Origin: Methanomicrobiales archaeon
GTDB taxonomy: Archaea; Halobacteriota; Methanomicrobia; Methanomicrobiales; Methanospirillaceae
NCBI GenBank assembly: GCA_025360805.1
Contig: JANYBK010000175.1
Span: forward strand, 1 to 40,427
Direction: 5' to 3'
DNA length: 40,427 nt
Of the stretch, positions 781 to 35,863 are shown in pieces. The position numbers and the translations under genes are program-made. The notes below the pieces were generated by a model. It did no database searches, was not told where the DNA came from, and saw nothing but the letters and a program-made list of their open reading frames with translations. Numbering within the stretch: position 1 is the stretch's first letter; every line of letters starts with the position of its first letter.

Positions 781-3700
781 ATGACTATTAAGAAATCGCT
801 AATCACAACGGATTGGAGAGCAAAAGGATTGAAGGCTAATCCGGGAACACGCTCTTTCAGGGCATGCTTCCTGCTTCTTATCCTGATGATGGTGTGTGTT
901 GCAGCTGTATCTGCAGCGTTAATCACCGGCATCTCACCAACTTCCGGTTCCCAATATGGTAACACCATAGTAACCATCACTGGGACTTTTACAGGAACGC
1001 CAACGGTAAATTTTTCCGCCAGTACTTATGATGCTACTGACAGCAAAGCGGGTACAGTGACGGCTTATTCCACTACTTCAATCACAGTGAAGACTCCGCC
1101 CCATGCACTCGGATTAGTCAACGTGTTTGTAAGCGATGACACGGGCATTACTGCTTCTAATGGTGCATTCACCTATACAGGTAATTTCCCGACGTTAGTC
1201 GGATTTAACACTAGCGCGAACACTACCCCCTCGGCCGGTTCCGCTCCAACTATGACCGAAACTTATTGGCCTGGTTTTGATGCAGTTCATAATGTTGAAA
1301 TGAAATACATCAAAGTTGCCGGGGGTTCCCTTATAAACCTAAGTGGGTCCTACTTAACAGCCCCGTATTATGTAACGTATACCGGGAATGGTCAAACCGT
1401 ACAAAACGCAACAACTGACTTTGTTGATGTTACGAAAGATAATGGTGGGACTGACTTCAACCTCACAATGAAAACCCCGGCCCATAGCGCAGGAACAGTT
1501 ACCGTCACCCTCTATACAGCCAATGGTTCTGTATCCAGAGGGAACTTAACCTATGTAGCTGTCCCAGTCATAACCGCTGTTTCGCCAGCATATGGCTCAA
1601 CTTTTGGCACTGGTACGATTACCATCTCAGGGACAGGAGACTTTGGATCAACGACTTCAGTATTCTTTAACAAGACGCAAGTTACTACCTTCCTTACGAA
1701 AAATGGAACTGCGGTCACACTGACTCTCCCAGCTCAACCTATATCGGGACCCTGTGTCGTTAATATCACCACAGTCGGTGGCGATTCGGCAATCACCGCG
1801 GGTCTATTCACTATTTATGATCCTCCGGCAATTGACACTGTTAGTAACCCCAGTGGTGCCTACGCCACATCACCGTTTAACATCTCGGTTCTCGGCGGTA
1901 CTACGGTAAACATTTACGGGAAAAACTTTACCGCAGCAAGCATGGTTGGAGCAACGGTAAAATTCAATGGAACAGCTGCTACCAGTGTAACGCGTGTCAG
2001 TGATACACAGATCACAGCGGTCGCTCCGGCTTGGCCATTCATGACAGTGAACACATTATGGCAAACCGCGCCTTTCATTAATATCCAAAACGCTTCGGTT
2101 AATGTTACTACATTAGGTGGGATCTCAAAGGACAACTTCGGCAATATCACCTATGATATACTAAAGCCGAACATCACCAGCATCTCGCCGACTAGCGGCT
2201 CGACAGGTGGCGGCGTCGTATTAACTATCACCGGGAAAAACCTTAGCTACGCAAGATTGGTATCCTTCAATCCTGTGACAGCGGGTAACCCGGTACTTTA
2301 CAACACAAGTGCTGGTGGTGTTACGGTTGTCAGTGACACTCAGATCACGTGTATAATCCCCAGTTCCACTCTAATTGGAGACTATAGAGTCAACGTGACC
2401 ACTCCGGCCGGGGTTTTATTCACCTCTTCCGATGTAAAGACATTCACCTATACCGCAATTGCTCCGGTCATCACAACGGTCTCGCCGAATTACGGCCCGG
2501 ACTTTGGCGGTCAATGGGTAAACATCACAGGGTCAGGCTTCTCCGGAACCACAGCGACCGGAGTAATCTTTAACGGTCAGGCGGGTAATAGTGCGTATGT
2601 ATTCAACGATACTTCGCTCACTGTGAATACCCCGGCATATCCGAAGGGAATTTCTTTCATCACAATCAACGCCGCCGGTGGCAGCATTACTAAACAGGCT
2701 GCATACACCTTTGCAGGACAACCGCAGATCACCAGTCTCTCACCGGTATCCGGATCGATTGCCGGTGGCAACACCATAACCATCAATGGGAGAAACCTTA
2801 CCGGTGCGAGTGTAGTAACATTTAACTTCACAAGGGCAACTGGTGTGACTGTTATCAACGATGGTCAGATCACAGCGATCCTCCCGGCAGCGAACCAAAG
2901 TGCAACCGGATCTGTTAACGTCAACGTGACCACCTACCTGACTAGCTCATCTGTAGAGGGGACGGGTGCCTTTAACTATGGATCCGCTCCGACCTTAACC
3001 AGCATCTCGCCGGTAAGCGGTTCGATTTCCGGTGGTACTTTAGTAACCCTCTTTGGGGCAAACCTTGCCAACGCGACATCAGTAACATTTGGTGGCCTAC
3101 CTGGAACCAATTTCACGCGTTTCGATGCAGCAACACAAGTCACCGTGAACACCCCGGCAACAACTACACCCGGAGTAGTTTATCCACTCATCTTAACACC
3201 CTCCGGCAGTGTAACTAACTCATCCGTAAGTTACACCTACTATGGAAGCCCGGTCATTACAAGCATCTCCCCGTCAAGCGGTCCGTTAGCCGGTGGCAAC
3301 TTAGTCACCATCACCGGAACCAGCTTTGTCGGAGCGAGCCAGGTAACCTTTGATGGTACACAGGCAACCAATTTCACGTATGTCGACTCGACAAAGATAA
3401 CAGCGAACGCCCCGGCCCATGCAGCTGGAGCTGTTACCGTTCTCATAGCCGCAACTGGTGGCACTGGGACAGGGACATACACCTATGCAGCAACTCCGAC
3501 CTCAACGGTAGGCGTATTCCGCAATGGAGCTGTCTACCTTGCAGGCACCAACACCAATGGTGGAGCACCAGTCAATGCCTTTAGCTATGGTATGACTGGC
3601 GATAAACCGGTAGTTGGACAATGGACCTCTACCCAAACTGCAAAAACCATCGGTGTCTTCCGTGGTAGCAGTGGTATGTTCTACCTCCGGAACACCAACA

Positions 3701-4179
3701 ATAATGGTGTAGCAGACACGAAGTTTAACTTCGGTCAGGCTAACGATGTACCGGTATCCGGTCACTGGTCAGGCGCTGGCATTGACACCGTGGGTGTCTT
3801 CCGCACTGGCACATTCTTCCTCGCAGGCAGCAATGTCAATGGTGGAGGAACGGTTAATGCCTTCAACTATGGTATGTCAACTGATGTACCAGTAGCAGGC
3901 GACTGGACCGGAAATGGAGCGACTGAAGTTGGTATCTTCCGCAATGGTCTGTGGGCTCTCGCTTCCAGCAACGTTGCTGGTGGTGGAACGCCAACCTACT
4001 TCACCTTCGGTCAGACTGGAGATGTACCAGTAACCGGAGACTGGAACGCAGATGGAGCAACTGAAGTTGGTGTCTTCCGCAATGGAATGATCTTCCAGGC
4101 AACACCAGCCGGAGCTCTCAGCGGTTACTTCAACTACGGTATGACCAGCGACTTACCAGTCGGTGGATACTTCGGTTGA
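781..4179 (+). CDS. Large secreted IPT/TIG-repeat protein with C-terminal five-unit FG-GAP-like module
   Basis: 1132 residues. A basic N-terminus is followed by a hydrophobic stretch around residues 29-45 (FLLLILMMVCVAAVSA), read as a signal peptide. About eight IPT/TIG-type Ig-like units follow, each opening with a line such as PVITSISPSSG or PQITSLSPVSGSIAGG and then an xITG motif. The last ~225 residues are five units of about 45 residues with the pattern VGVFRNG...FNYGM..DVPV.GDW, the last one short. The GDWNADGATEVG loops resemble the Ca-binding DxNxDG loops of FG-GAP/VCBS repeats. Many N-x-S/T sequons are present, so it is a plausible AglB substrate. There is no C-terminal membrane anchor or PGF-CTERM tail. 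I infer a wall-associated or adhesive surface protein. An alternative TTG start at 829, after GGAGA, cannot be excluded. Confidence 0.8.
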   Translation: MTIKKSLITTDWRAKGLKANPGTRSFRACFLLLILMMVCVAAVSAALITGISPTSGSQYGNTIVTITGTFTGTPTVNFSASTYDATDSKAGTVTAYSTTSITVKTPPHALGLVNVFVSDDTGITASNGAFTYTGNFPTLVGFNTSANTTPSAGSAPTMTETYWPGFDAVHNVEMKYIKVAGGSLINLSGSYLTAPYYVTYTGNGQTVQNATTDFVDVTKDNGGTDFNLTMKTPAHSAGTVTVTLYTANGSVSRGNLTYVAVPVITAVSPAYGSTFGTGTITISGTGDFGSTTSVFFNKTQVTTFLTKNGTAVTLTLPAQPISGPCVVNITTVGGDSAITAGLFTIYDPPAIDTVSNPSGAYATSPFNISVLGGTTVNIYGKNFTAASMVGATVKFNGTAATSVTRVSDTQITAVAPAWPFMTVNTLWQTAPFINIQNASVNVTTLGGISKDNFGNITYDILKPNITSISPTSGSTGGGVVLTITGKNLSYARLVSFNPVTAGNPVLYNTSAGGVTVVSDTQITCIIPSSTLIGDYRVNVTTPAGVLFTSSDVKTFTYTAIAPVITTVSPNYGPDFGGQWVNITGSGFSGTTATGVIFNGQAGNSAYVFNDTSLTVNTPAYPKGISFITINAAGGSITKQAAYTFAGQPQITSLSPVSGSIAGGNTITINGRNLTGASVVTFNFTRATGVTVINDGQITAILPAANQSATGSVNVNVTTYLTSSSVEGTGAFNYGSAPTLTSISPVSGSISGGTLVTLFGANLANATSVTFGGLPGTNFTRFDAATQVTVNTPATTTPGVVYPLILTPSGSVTNSSVSYTYYGSPVITSISPSSGPLAGGNLVTITGTSFVGASQVTFDGTQATNFTYVDSTKITANAPAHAAGAVTVLIAATGGTGTGTYTYAATPTSTVGVFRNGAVYLAGTNTNGGAPVNAFSYGMTGDKPVVGQWTSTQTAKTIGVFRGSSGMFYLRNTNNNGVADTKFNFGQANDVPVSGHWSGAGIDTVGVFRTGTFFLAGSNVNGGGTVNAFNYGMSTDVPVAGDWTGNGATEVGIFRNGLWALASSNVAGGGTPTYFTFGQTGDVPVTGDWNADGATEVGVFRNGMIFQATPAGALSGYFNYGMTSDLPVGGYFG
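3502..4176 (+). repeat. Five-unit FG-GAP-like repeat module, copy 1
   Basis: Encodes five ~45-residue units ending LPVGGYFG at the stop codon. The same module, in the same unit order, ends the protein at 30375-32540. The two copies share long exact DNA runs and lie in inverted orientation on either side of the glycan locus. Confidence 0.8.
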
Positions 4180-4200
4180 ACGTAAAGTAAGTAAGAAAAT

Positions 4201-4227
4201 GGGGAAAAATCCCCTAAACTTTTTTTT
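4201..4227 (+). terminator. Hairpin plus T-run terminator after the TIG-repeat gene
   Basis: GGGG-AAAAAT-CCCC is followed, after TAAAC, by a run of eight T, about 20 bases after the stop codon. Confidence 0.65.
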
Positions 4228-30374: not shown

Positions 30375-32540
30375 TCAACCGAAATATCCTCCGACTGGTA
30401 AATCGTTGGTCATACCGTAATAGAAGTAATTGTTAAGATCTCCAGTGCTGGACGCCTGATAGATCATTCCATTGCGGAAGATCCCTACTTCTGTCTTGCC
30501 ATCTGCGTTCCAGTCTCCGGTTACCGGTACATCTCCAGCCTGACCGAAGATGAAGTAGGTAGGAGTACCTCCTCCAGCAGCATTGCTGGACGCAAGGGCA
30601 AACAGACCATTGCGGAAGATACCGACTCTGGTTACGCCATTTCCAGTCCAGTCACCAGTTATCGGTACATCTCCAGCCTGACCGAAGATGAAGTAGGTGG
30701 GAGTTCCTCCACCATCAGTGTTGCTCGACGCGAGTGCAAACAGACCGTTGCGGAAGATACCCGCAGTGTCACTGCCAGTTCCGGACCAGTGACCGGCTAC
30801 CGGTATATCTCCAGTCTGACCATAGTTGAATGTCGTACTTCCATTACCTCCAGTATTGGTGTTACGGAGGCAGAACAGACCATTGCGGAAGATGCCTATG
30901 GTATCAATTGCGGTTCCGGTCCATTTACCAGTTATAGGTTTATCGTCAGTCATACCATAGTTAAAGGTATTGACTGGTAATCCCCCATTGGTGTTGCTGC
31001 CTGCGAGGTAAACCGTTCCATTGCGGAAAACTCCGACTGTTGATGTTGAGGTCTGCTGGACAACTGTCACTGTGAACATTGTACCGGTCTGCGCCACTGT
31101 GGTGCCGTATCCATCAACGCCAACAAGACTGATAGTGTAAGAACCGGGGGCAGATAGTCCCGAGACTTCGATCCCGAACTCCCAGAGCGAGTTGAACCGT
31201 GCCGGGCTGCCGGAAGTATAGAGCCGGGACAGATTCACATCGTGCATTCCCATCCTGACGAGGTTTCCAGCCGCATCGGTGATAGTGCAGTTTACCTGCG
31301 TGATGCGGTTATCGATGGTGAACCGGTATGGGGTCGAAGTCGCAGTAACCGTAGAAGCGATCGGTTTTGTTGCCCCATAAACGACAAACTCCTTTCCCTG
31401 TGGGACTGTTATACCCCCACCAACATTAAAATTCAGGGTCTTTGGGGTCGTTATATCATTTGGATCGTACAGGTTTTCAAAGGACGTGCCAATTGGCGTA
31501 AAGATCTCTGCCCGGTAGATGACCAGTCGCTTGTCTGACGGGATAGGTATTGGATTCCCGGTCAGGGTTCGTAAGCCGGTGGATGCATCGTTAAACGTCA
31601 TTTGGGGTTCACCGGTGTCATAGTAAAGGAAGGTAGTGTTGGAACTGTCCTGAAGGCCATATTTCAGGATCTCTGATAGTTCGACACTGTATGTGGCGCT
31701 GCCACTGTTGATGTTGTAAATGAACATTGCGTTGTTTGCGACAACCGGGTTATCAATTATGGTTCCCGAACGGTCATTGACCACCTCGATCCCGTTATTT
31801 GGGGTCCAGCGCTTTGGAGACTCCCACCAGACGCTGCTGTTGTCAGGGTCGGTGAAATACCCGGGGAACCAGTCAAAATAGATTCGACGGTTGTGGGTTA
31901 TACCGTACTGGGTGAGGGCATCCTTGTTTGTGGTCGGCCGGAATGTCCCGAGAACCGCATTGGTAAGCCCGAGTGTGATTGTCTTTCTTACATCCTGTCC
32001 GGCAAAACTTCCGGATAGCCCGATCACCCGGATCGTATAGTTGCCCGCAGTCAGATCAACAAGCGGGGTTCCGGTACTGTCCGTGTAATTCGTATCGAAA
32101 CCTTTTGTGACACCTCCTAATATCATACCTAAGTAATATCGGTTGGTCACAACCAGTTTGTTGGTCGGGTCTAGAATACCCCCTGGTGATTCCACGAGAT
32201 CAGGCACCATGGCACCGTTTTTCCAGGTACAATACCCGGTCAAGGTGCAGTAACTAGCATTGATTACACTCGCATTCGTGATACCCGATACGGGATCGAC
32301 ATGACTCTGGATGACCCGTACCGGTGACCCTGATACCGTATCACCCGGGTAGACTTCGATCCGGATGTCACCGGGGTTTACAACAGTACCGGTAAATATT
32401 CCATAAACGTGGAAATCACGCTCCTCCGTAAGGAGGGTTTCATTTGCGCTTGGCTGGGTGATGACAAGCTGGTTGGCGCAAACTGCCGGGATGGAAAGGA
32501 AAAGTGCAATCAGTATGAGATAACTCATGACACGGTTCAT
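30375..32540 (-). CDS. Secreted surface protein with the same C-terminal five-unit FG-GAP-like module
   Basis: 721 residues. Signal peptide at 1-22 (LILIALFLSIPAVCA). Residues ~23-495 are beta-rich, with stretches such as LVITQPSANETLLTEERDF, NYTIRVIGLSGSFAGQD and APGSYTISLVGVDGYG that suggest Ig-like/CARDB-type folds; no family recognised. Residues ~499-721 are five units of the VGIFRNG...TYFIFGQAGDVPVTGDW type, ending NDLPVGGYFG directly before the stop, as in the protein at 781-4179. Units 3 and 4 are nearly identical, a recent duplication. Several N-x-S/T sequons occur. No membrane anchor. It is adjacent to and co-oriented with aglB, and divergent from the S-layer-type gene. Confidence 0.75.
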   Translation of the reverse strand: MNRVMSYLILIALFLSIPAVCANQLVITQPSANETLLTEERDFHVYGIFTGTVVNPGDIRIEVYPGDTVSGSPVRVIQSHVDPVSGITNASVINASYCTLTGYCTWKNGAMVPDLVESPGGILDPTNKLVVTNRYYLGMILGGVTKGFDTNYTDSTGTPLVDLTAGNYTIRVIGLSGSFAGQDVRKTITLGLTNAVLGTFRPTTNKDALTQYGITHNRRIYFDWFPGYFTDPDNSSVWWESPKRWTPNNGIEVVNDRSGTIIDNPVVANNAMFIYNINSGSATYSVELSEILKYGLQDSSNTTFLYYDTGEPQMTFNDASTGLRTLTGNPIPIPSDKRLVIYRAEIFTPIGTSFENLYDPNDITTPKTLNFNVGGGITVPQGKEFVVYGATKPIASTVTATSTPYRFTIDNRITQVNCTITDAAGNLVRMGMHDVNLSRLYTSGSPARFNSLWEFGIEVSGLSAPGSYTISLVGVDGYGTTVAQTGTMFTVTVVQQTSTSTVGVFRNGTVYLAGSNTNGGLPVNTFNYGMTDDKPITGKWTGTAIDTIGIFRNGLFCLRNTNTGGNGSTTFNYGQTGDIPVAGHWSGTGSDTAGIFRNGLFALASSNTDGGGTPTYFIFGQAGDVPITGDWTGNGVTRVGIFRNGLFALASSNAAGGGTPTYFIFGQAGDVPVTGDWNADGKTEVGIFRNGMIYQASSTGDLNNYFYYGMTNDLPVGGYFG
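30378..31046 (-). repeat. Five-unit FG-GAP-like repeat module, copy 2
   Basis: Same module as 3502-4176, in inverted orientation. Exact shared runs include GTAACCGGAGACTGGAACGC, and identity continues past the stop (TTCGGTTGAACGTAAA in both). Confidence 0.8.
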
Positions 32541-32998: not shown

Positions 32999-33127
32999 GC
33001 TCTTTAACAAATACTGTTCCATATTCCGTCCAATCGGAGTATGGGGCTCGTAGAACTGTTATTCGGCATCTGTCGAAACTGTTCGCGGCTTGGAATGTAG
33101 ATGTAAACTTTGGAGGAACTTAAACAT

Positions 33128-35863
33128 ATGACTAAGCGATTTACTATTGCAATGGTTGCAATCGTTCTGTTCGTGCTGATGGCAGTTTTGCCGGTATCAG
33201 CAGTTAACGGAGCGGTAATCAACCAGGGAGCAACCGTCTTCATTGGTGAAGGCGGTTTGAATGTAGCCAATGCCCTTAACGCAGCACAGAATCAAGCAAT
33301 AGGTAGTACACCCGTAAGGACTACCATCGGATGGTGGGCATCAGCAGCAGCGTTAGGGTCTACATCACCGACCAAGTCTATTGATCTTGGCGTTGGTAAC
33401 AGATACCAGTCCATGCAAGTTGCACCAGCAGACTTTGTCGGCTATACCGGTAACTGGTATTTAGTAAACTCGAGTACTGGATATGCAGACACTCCATCTG
33501 TCTTCACCGTTGCAGACCCATCCCTCGGCATTGCAGTCTGGGACTTCCGGCTGGCAACAGGGAATGATGTAACTGGCAAATCAGTAGTTCAGGGAGAACC
33601 CCTTGGGTTCCAGATCAACACTAACATGTACGCTGCAGTTGACGGCAGGTACCGCGGCAACCCCAATAATGTAGGTACTTTCCCCAACCCGGCAACTGAC
33701 GGTTACATCACCATCAAGGTGAAGGATGCGAATGGTGCTACACTTAACGCACTTAGTGTAGGAGCCCCCGGCACTGCAGGAACAAGTACAAGTCTTCTCA
33801 AGCAATTTGTGGGCACCCAGCCATGGTACTTTGGTTCCTCTGCAACAGTCGCATGGGTAACCGATGCAACTGACTTCGGTAACCAGTACTTATACCCGGT
33901 AGGAACCTACTCAGCATGGGCAGAGTCCACCCTTAATGGCATGAAGGACAACTACAAGAATGCAGGTGCAGACTACACTGGAAAGACTGTTTCTGGAACC
34001 GGCACGATTACCCTCGTTTCTGACTCTGTCAAGATAGAGGCAAACAAGGATTCAGTCGTCCGCAGTAAGACATTCTCAGTATCCGTCACTGGTAAAGCCG
34101 CTACCCAATACTATCTGTGGGTTAAGGGCACAAGCACTATGACCGGTGGATACGACAACCAGCCCCCCATGGTCAATGTTAATCAGGAAGGGGTTACAGT
34201 AGATGATCTTATCCTCGCAGGAGCCGGTATACACCCAATCGGTGACTACCTGTATCAGAATGGTGGCGGAACATTAGCAACAGGATCCATCTGGTCTAAT
34301 GTTGCAGAAATGCGTTCAACTACCTACAACAAAACCCGCTACTATGCATCCATCCTCACCACCGCTTCAGGTACCAGGACTATTGAGTTTACAACCAACA
34401 ACTGGACCAAGGCACAGAAATACACCATCCGCGTAGAGCAGAGATTCCCAATCGGTGCAGCTTACGGTACCGGAAACGTCAAGAGTGACGAAGTTGATGT
34501 GAAGGTCGAGAAGGGTGCAGTCACTATCGTGGCAGCCGGCGACCAGAGCTACTATCTTGGCGAAGAGATCAAGTTCTCCGGTACAAATACCGAGACCTAC
34601 AATACATACCTGTTCATCACTGGTCCGAACCTGAAAAAAGGTGGTTCACAGATCCAGAGTGACAACCCCCGTACCGATGCAGTTGTAAATGGCAACGCAG
34701 CAACCTTCCAGCAGGTTAATGTCCTCGGTGACAACACCTGGTCATGGAAGTGGGGAACCTCAAAAGTTGCACTCGATGCAGGCACGTACACTATTTACGC
34801 AGTAAGCCAGCCCAACAATGCAGCTGATCAGAACCTTGAAAACGCAGCATTTGGAACGGTCTCTATCATCATCAAGAAGCCGTTCGTCTCAGCCACAGCA
34901 TCCCAGTCCACTGTTGCACAGGGTGACAGGATCTTCATCACCGGTACCGCAGAAGGTAACCCAACAGGTGTCAAGATCTGGATTCTCGGCAAGAACTACC
35001 CGACCACTGCTGGAGAAGTTAAGGATCAATCTGTGAATTCTGACGCTTCGTTCAAATACGAAGTCACGCAGACATCCACCAAGAATCTCTACCCCGGCCA
35101 GTACTTCGTTGTCGTTCAGCACCCGATGCAGAACAATATCTTCGATATTGACACATATGATTCAGGCGGTGGAGTCATCAAGGTCATTAACAAGCAGATG
35201 GCAGACAATTTAGGTATTGCGCCACTGCAAACTGTCTTCACCCTGCTTGGACAGGGCAGTCTCCAGGGATCCGACGCAGCTGAAGCCCTTGTTCAGGGTA
35301 TCAACAGCCCCAACGTCGATGATACCTACACCAAGCTCCAGTTCCTCGTTGAGGTACCAGTCATCCGTATCGCCCCGGTTGGCGACAAGCACGTTGGTGA
35401 CAAGTTCACCATCACTGCAGCAACCAACCTCGCGGTAGATGACGAAGTCCTCGTCCAGGTTTACTCATCATCATTCAAGCCGACTCAGAAGAGCCAGAGC
35501 GGCGAGTTCAGCGGAGCAACCGGCACCGTCAAGGTAGCCAAGGGAGACAGCGGCATGAACAAGATCTCGTTCGATATTGACTCATCAACATTCAAACCGG
35601 ACGAGTACATTGTTACTGCAGAAGCAATTCTCCAGGTAGCAACCGGAACTGCACTCTTCAATGTTCTTGAAGGCGCAGCACCCGTTGTAACAACCAAAGC
35701 ACCAGTTGTAGTAACAACTGTAGCTCCAGTAACAACTGTAGCACCCGTTGTAACAACCGCAGTCCCAGTCACGACAACACCCAAGCCGGCCCCCGGCTAC
35801 GGTGCATTGATCGCTTTGATTGGTCTCGGTGCAGTTGCGTTCATCGTTGTGCGCAGACACTAA
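33128..35863 (+). CDS. S-layer-type surface protein with PGF-CTERM-like tail
   Basis: 911 residues from the ATG at 33128; the ORF-track TTG at 33110 overlaps the ribosome site GGAGG at 33112-33116. A signal peptide (FTIAMVAIVLFVLMAVLPVSAVN) is followed by INQGATVFIGEGGLNVANAL, which I associate with the DUF3821-type domain of Methanomicrobiales surface proteins. The middle is a chain of beta-sandwich-like domains. The last 65 residues are a Thr/Val/Pro-rich stalk (VVTTKAPVVVTTVAPVTT) and then PGYGALIALIGLGAVAFIVVRRH: a short motif, a hydrophobic helix and a basic end, as in PGF-CTERM signals handled by archaeosortase A, with Tyr replacing Phe. Codon use looks strongly biased, fitting a highly expressed gene. 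Likely the main lattice protein or a major wall protein and a natural AglB acceptor. Confidence 0.82.
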   Translation: MTKRFTIAMVAIVLFVLMAVLPVSAVNGAVINQGATVFIGEGGLNVANALNAAQNQAIGSTPVRTTIGWWASAAALGSTSPTKSIDLGVGNRYQSMQVAPADFVGYTGNWYLVNSSTGYADTPSVFTVADPSLGIAVWDFRLATGNDVTGKSVVQGEPLGFQINTNMYAAVDGRYRGNPNNVGTFPNPATDGYITIKVKDANGATLNALSVGAPGTAGTSTSLLKQFVGTQPWYFGSSATVAWVTDATDFGNQYLYPVGTYSAWAESTLNGMKDNYKNAGADYTGKTVSGTGTITLVSDSVKIEANKDSVVRSKTFSVSVTGKAATQYYLWVKGTSTMTGGYDNQPPMVNVNQEGVTVDDLILAGAGIHPIGDYLYQNGGGTLATGSIWSNVAEMRSTTYNKTRYYASILTTASGTRTIEFTTNNWTKAQKYTIRVEQRFPIGAAYGTGNVKSDEVDVKVEKGAVTIVAAGDQSYYLGEEIKFSGTNTETYNTYLFITGPNLKKGGSQIQSDNPRTDAVVNGNAATFQQVNVLGDNTWSWKWGTSKVALDAGTYTIYAVSQPNNAADQNLENAAFGTVSIIIKKPFVSATASQSTVAQGDRIFITGTAEGNPTGVKIWILGKNYPTTAGEVKDQSVNSDASFKYEVTQTSTKNLYPGQYFVVVQHPMQNNIFDIDTYDSGGGVIKVINKQMADNLGIAPLQTVFTLLGQGSLQGSDAAEALVQGINSPNVDDTYTKLQFLVEVPVIRIAPVGDKHVGDKFTITAATNLAVDDEVLVQVYSSSFKPTQKSQSGEFSGATGTVKVAKGDSGMNKISFDIDSSTFKPDEYIVTAEAILQVATGTALFNVLEGAAPVVTTKAPVVVTTVAPVTTVAPVVTTAVPVTTTPKPAPGYGALIALIGLGAVAFIVVRRH

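Follow-up and report, generated by a model that had tools for sequence, protein, structure and literature searches.

Two secreted proteins with a common tail

The window, by which we mean the whole 40,427-nucleotide stretch of Methanomicrobiales DNA analysed here, encodes two secreted proteins, A and B, that end in the same repeat array and lie on opposite strands. The features of interest are as follows.

781..4179, +: secreted protein A, 1132 aa, with a signal-like N-terminus, nine IPT/TIG domains and a C-terminal predicted propeller
3499..4176, +: propeller module A, five units, 20 predicted strands, AlphaFold2 pLDDT 95.9
4177..4225, +: stop codon and 3′ flank of A, with TTGAACGTAAA common with B and about 35 bases common with a copy on another contig (C33)
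27260..29926, −: gene for what we take to be an AglB-like oligosaccharyltransferase, assigned by reading the sequence
30375..32540, −: secreted protein B, 721 aa, with a signal-like N-terminus, a domain of about 495 aa conserved in the genus and a C-terminal predicted propeller
30378..31046, −: propeller module B, five units, 71% identical to A, 20 predicted strands, pLDDT 94.7
33110..35863, +: DUF3821 protein of the Methanospirillum S-layer protein family, with a PGF-CTERM-like hydrophobic end, adjoining B

Both open reading frames are real, and the array occupies the last 226 residues of A and the last 223 of B, in each case as five units of about 46 aa (starting in A at module residues 2, 49, 96, 143 and 189, counted from 0). 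The modules are 71% identical in amino acids over 223 aligned codons and 75.5% identical in DNA, and both end in LPVGGYFG, as an earlier note on this DNA had reported. The N-terminal parts differ, also as reported, with nine IPT/TIG domains in A and an unnamed domain of about 495 residues in B. The note's further claim of the same unit order holds for units 1, 2, 4 and 5, each of which is closest to its counterpart in the other protein, but not for unit 3. In B this unit shows 80% identity to unit 4 of the same protein and 74% to unit 4 of A, whereas its identity to unit 3 of A is just 57%; it looks to have been overwritten by a copy of the protein's own unit 4. Similarity does run past the stop codon, where TTGAACGTAAA is common to A and B before the likeness fades, and most of the first ~35 post-stop bases are alike in A and C33, including a terminator-like GGGG..CCCC hairpin (GGGGAAAAATCCCC). 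At the level of a hydropathy scan, neither protein has a hydrophobic segment beyond the signal-like one at its N-terminus, which agrees with the statement that no other anchor is present.

Between the two propeller genes, at 4446-29926, lies a large surface-glycan cluster as read from the sequence, with RmlA/B/D-like and GDP-sugar enzymes, glycosyltransferases, a Wzm/Wzt-like ABC-2 transporter and the AglB-like transferase. As context in favor of a glycan ligand the cluster is weak, and conserved synteny with it was rejected as support, since the orthologues of B do not keep its glycan-gene neighborhood. The DUF3821 S-layer family on the other side of B is restricted to Methanomicrobiales (PMC11641113).

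When the C-terminal 226 residues of A were used to search the genome, they retrieved B (E 3.5e-99), another full copy, on contig C33, that is 88% identical to A and also ends in LPVGGYFG, and further copies in two C1-family peptidases (contigs C235 and C181). By hydropathy scan, a signal-like N-terminus is present in all five propeller proteins and a C-terminal transmembrane (TM) segment in none. Between A and C33, dS is 0.24 in the module and 1.52 in the region preceding it, and the module therefore moves or is converted as a unit of DNA; dN in the module comparison is far below dS. The five copies of this genome group together in a single clade (support 99) in a quick tree, where archaeal modules as a whole are scattered in several places among bacterial ones. 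The C181 peptidase (L011:8607-11441) has Lectin_like and TIG domains and holds the sole propeller copy of this genome to lie away from the C-terminus, with a Pro-Thr linker and a region of about 80 residues after it. Short, stop-interrupted repeat remnants at C29:4248-4493 (L012) and C235:9029-9154 (L010) are decayed copies of the module.

Predicted fold and family placement

AlphaFold2, with 85 or 42 aligned sequences as input, models both modules with high confidence (pLDDT 95.9 for A and 94.7 for B; pTM 0.91). The 20 predicted strands in each make five four-stranded blades in a propeller arrangement, and the suggestion that the array might be a five-bladed propeller is thus borne out by structure prediction. 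Each repeat runs through strand B (VGVFR), strands C and D, strand A of the next blade (DVPVxGDW) and then a DxNxDG loop; the array opens at STVGVFR, which is strand B of blade 1, and the final repeat (...DLPVGGYFG) supplies strand A. Judged from this strand order, the inner strand of the last repeat would close blade 1 in a velcro closure. As the chain stops just after that strand, the common LPVGGYFG end may be explained without any sorting function.

Among PDB structures the model matches designed Cake propellers first, followed by UmbA4, NHL propellers and the PVL lectin group, with TM-scores of about 0.5 or lower; the best natural match is UmbA4 (9oee, E 8e-6), which binds a cell-wall glycan. 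PDB sequence searches with two profiles gave nothing relevant (the A2 profile had no match at E 10), and a viral structure library returned generic propellers only. Neither window module has a match in Pfam or NCBIfam, the PF13517 and PF01839 profiles included, and an NCBIfam scan of the relatives gave scattered, chance-like matches only. PF13517 (FG-GAP_3) is matched by 39 of 85 aligned relatives (best 9.4e-13), and on this ground the family is placed in the VCBS superfamily, membership of the window modules being transitive. Integrin-type propellers, PVL and tachylectin-2 are all members of that superfamily (Pereira and Lupas 2021, PMC8023676).

There are several points of likeness to known propellers, each with its differences. 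First, VCBS/FG-GAP_3 propellers share a DxDxDG-like loop after strand A and occur in secreted proteins with Ig-like partner domains, whereas the family here has five blades of about 46 aa, and its window copies lack a library match and have mostly degenerate calcium loops. Second, the C-terminal propeller of UmbA4, from the Streptomyces umbrella particle, binds cell-wall teichuronic acid, and five-bladed (5BP) families are among its kin (PMC13274773). It resembles our modules as a C-terminal propeller on a secreted protein, but it has six blades against five here, and the family profiles have no PDB sequence match. Third, tachylectin-2 is a lectin of five blades, and its units are 47 aa long. 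The GW motif between blades that helps to build the sugar pocket of tachylectin-2 and PVL (PMC8023676) is not evident in the window modules when these are compared by sequence, which counts against the interpretation favored below, and tachylectins have no counterpart of the one or two DxNxDG-like loops retained in the modules. Sequence comparison gives no support for assignment to the tachylectin-2 family: it is absent from the 25 most frequent Pfam matches listed for the 85 relatives, and no PDB sequence match was found at E 10.

The proposal that the module is previously undescribed is therefore correct in one respect and not in another. The family is new in that no name for it exists in the libraries against which the window copies were searched; in kind it is known, as secreted proteins ending in binding propellers of the VCBS/FG-GAP type have been described, including five-bladed lectin families in secreted bacterial proteins, among them those of Streptomyces (PMC8023676, PMC13274773). 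In its abstract and references, a 2004 paper that surveys the tandem repeats of Methanosarcina surface proteins names RIVW, LGxL, LVIVD and LGFP, and does not include the present repeat by name (PMC2447325). Secreted bacterial proteins often contain members of the family, no Pfam or NCBIfam model catches the window copies, and the family would merit a model of its own.

Calcium binding had also been suggested. Loops 1–4 of A and B read QWTSTQ/KWTGTA, HWSGAG/HWSGTG, DWTGNG and DWNADG, the last two being the same in both; loops 1 and 2 have lost their aspartate, and the fifth is missing because the chain ends there. Of the five loops, one thus has the whole D-x-N-x-D-G motif and another a part of it, and the window copies could bind cations at one or two sites at most. 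Many other members of the family could do so, as the DxDxDG motif is kept in 56–68 of the 85 at each of three alignable loops.

Distribution and position among relatives

Scanning one genome per species (84,980 species) yielded 273 stretches that encode relatives. The best 80 of the 273 (76 loci) come chiefly from Actinomycetota, Acidobacteriota, Chloroflexota, Nitrospirota, Thermodesulfobacteriota, planctomycetes and Pseudomonadota, with a few archaea; a strictly archaeal module was rejected, as close relatives span many bacterial phyla and the archaeal copies are interspersed in the tree. Viral contigs contributed one relative only. Within the phylum, 25 of 394 genomes have the family, and among 60 near relatives it was found in 11, each of them from the genus of the window. 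A hydrophobic N-terminal segment is found in 54 of 67 full-length proteins, compared with 9 in shuffled controls, and none of the 67 has a C-terminal TM segment. Partner domains in the bacterial proteins include those of cell-wall and polysaccharide enzymes (Amidase_2, M23, Glucosaminidase, SpoIID, polysaccharide deacetylase, GH5/6/26), and secreted proteases are represented too.

Position was scored for 95 arrays with at least four units and a complete 3′ end, an array being called C-terminal if at most 25 residues follow it; since whole-module resemblance was the criterion for choosing loci, the fractions apply to close relatives. On this count 78 arrays are C-terminal, 4 lie 26–80 residues from the end and 13 lie deeper inside. 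For archaea the figures are 27 of 34 C-terminal and 7 of 34 not, and to the question whether the module is always terminal in archaeal genomes the answer is mostly, but not always. We looked for a mainly internal location or for residence in cytoplasmic proteins, either of which would speak against the role first proposed, and the predominance of C-terminal arrays in both sets is the opposite. An eleven-unit array near the N-terminus of a Woesearchaeota protein (L026) is possibly two propellers in tandem.

This predominance, together with the identical end of A, B and C33, could be read as a CTERM-like sorting signal at the C-terminus, recognized by export or sorting machinery of its own. We consider this very improbable, and the sorting domain envisaged in the earlier note finds no support, on several counts. 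First, the remaining arrays are internal or N-terminal, including some placed ahead of polysaccharide deacetylases. Second, the ends vary among relatives (PVGGYFG, VGKW, GDWDGQ, PLVW) and fall where the ring should close; of the 73 C-terminal arrays that were scored, 47 end 0–4 residues past the closing aromatic. Third, there is no TM segment and no tripartite end. A CTERM-type signal in the strict sense (always C-terminal, with a motif, TM helix and basic tail) was rejected on the same grounds, 17 of 95 and 7 of 34 arrays lying elsewhere.

It might also be argued that the common array is mere repeat convergence or gene-conversion noise, with no defined fold or function, as its units resemble one another and unit 3 of B copies unit 4. 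This is the least credible reading of all, in view of the high-confidence predicted fold, the low dN relative to dS, and the retention of five units across phyla (76 of 95 arrays, with spans centering on ~230 aa).

Exchange with membrane anchors and a putative role at the cell surface

The N-terminal ~495 aa of B are present in nine other genomes of the genus, and none of those proteins has the propeller module of A and B. In six of the proteins (from genomes G034, G009, with two, G029, G005 and G024) the B-type domain is followed by a PGF-pre-PGF-type region, which matches TIGR04213 at E 1.4e-18 and 4.6e-18 in the two proteins scanned, and then by a hydrophobic C-terminal helix and a basic RRWxIxxQNPxLFRxY tail. 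A seventh protein, in G023, ends instead in a cohesin match (under Pfam's cut-off) and a dockerin-like repeat pair. In the closest relative of B, which is 75% identical, divergence starts right at residue ~495. The PGF-pre-PGF and TM tail of methanogen surface proteins thus stands where the propeller stands in B, after a common N-terminal domain, but it is membrane-embedded and unrelated in sequence to the propeller; the archaeal dockerin/cohesin-like tails likewise share the slot, but are unrelated domains for protein–protein docking. The C1 peptidases of the order, whose tails were classed by reading the sequence and not all by profile, have in this same slot a propeller, a dockerin-like tail (G027, G040 and G051), PGF-pre-PGF plus TM, or PKD or beta-helix domains. 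The literature searched holds no account of an anchor-for-propeller swap within one genus.

The module therefore sits where homologous proteins have known anchors, and the attachment role suggested at the outset gains indirect support from this exchange, so that we regard it as a putative attachment domain. The interpretation we favor, and think moderately probable, is that the module is a closed five-bladed VCBS/FG-GAP propeller that replaces an anchor and holds the exported protein by binding to the envelope, most likely to a glycan. It would be a mobile, non-catalytic binding domain, copied from gene to gene as a unit of DNA, and in archaeal proteins of the A and B type it would substitute for the membrane anchor of their relatives. 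Retention on the cell by non-covalent envelope binding is suggested by the membrane anchor or dockerin-like tail that the same N-terminal domain carries elsewhere, although PKD and beta-helix domains also fill the slot, which is accordingly not solely one for anchors and counts against retention. The ligand would most likely be a surface glycan, such as an S-layer N-glycan or another exported polysaccharide, which we hold with less certainty than retention itself. Little is known of how archaeal surface proteins lacking a membrane tail stay bound to the cell, and the occurrence within a genus of one N-terminal domain with a membrane, a docking-type or a propeller tail makes a retention role directly testable.

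Two other functions would account for many of the same observations. The propeller could face outward as an adhesin or carbohydrate-binding module that recognizes the surroundings or other cells, the protein being released or otherwise held. The bacterial partners include polysaccharide-active enzymes, the propeller-tailed C1 peptidases could be directed to substrates, and UmbA4, the nearest natural relative with a solved structure, has the walls of other cells as its target (PMC13274773). We nevertheless judge outward recognition rather unlikely, though worth keeping in mind, because the B orthologues have a membrane anchor or dockerin-like tail at the same place and no other anchor was found in A and B. 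Alternatively, as propellers often bind proteins and cohesin/dockerin-like tails occupy the slot in relatives, the module could dock, dockerin-like, onto a surface partner protein and not a glycan; no candidate partner was found, the bacterial relatives reside in wall- and polysaccharide-acting enzymes, and protein docking appears doubtful, more so than outward recognition.

Retention by glycan binding could extend beyond these genes. TIGR04213 has no match in the genome of the window (87.8% complete), as against 26 of 36 relatives, which raises the tentative and on present evidence unlikely prospect that a portable five-bladed lectin propeller serves some methanogens as a general non-covalent surface anchor, swapped for PGF-pre-PGF/TM and here replacing it genome-wide. 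Propeller and PGF-pre-PGF are found together in other genomes of the genus, so wholesale replacement in this lineage is only a possibility.

The remaining proteins of this set show further variation. The B-type protein of G028 looks frameshifted and the copy in G008 is cut by the contig end, and a TIG protein of G008 likewise ends in an RRWW tail. In the G023 protein (L134, 4417-8481) a long NHL propeller and a PKD domain precede the B-type domain, and the cohesin/dockerin-like pair forms the end.
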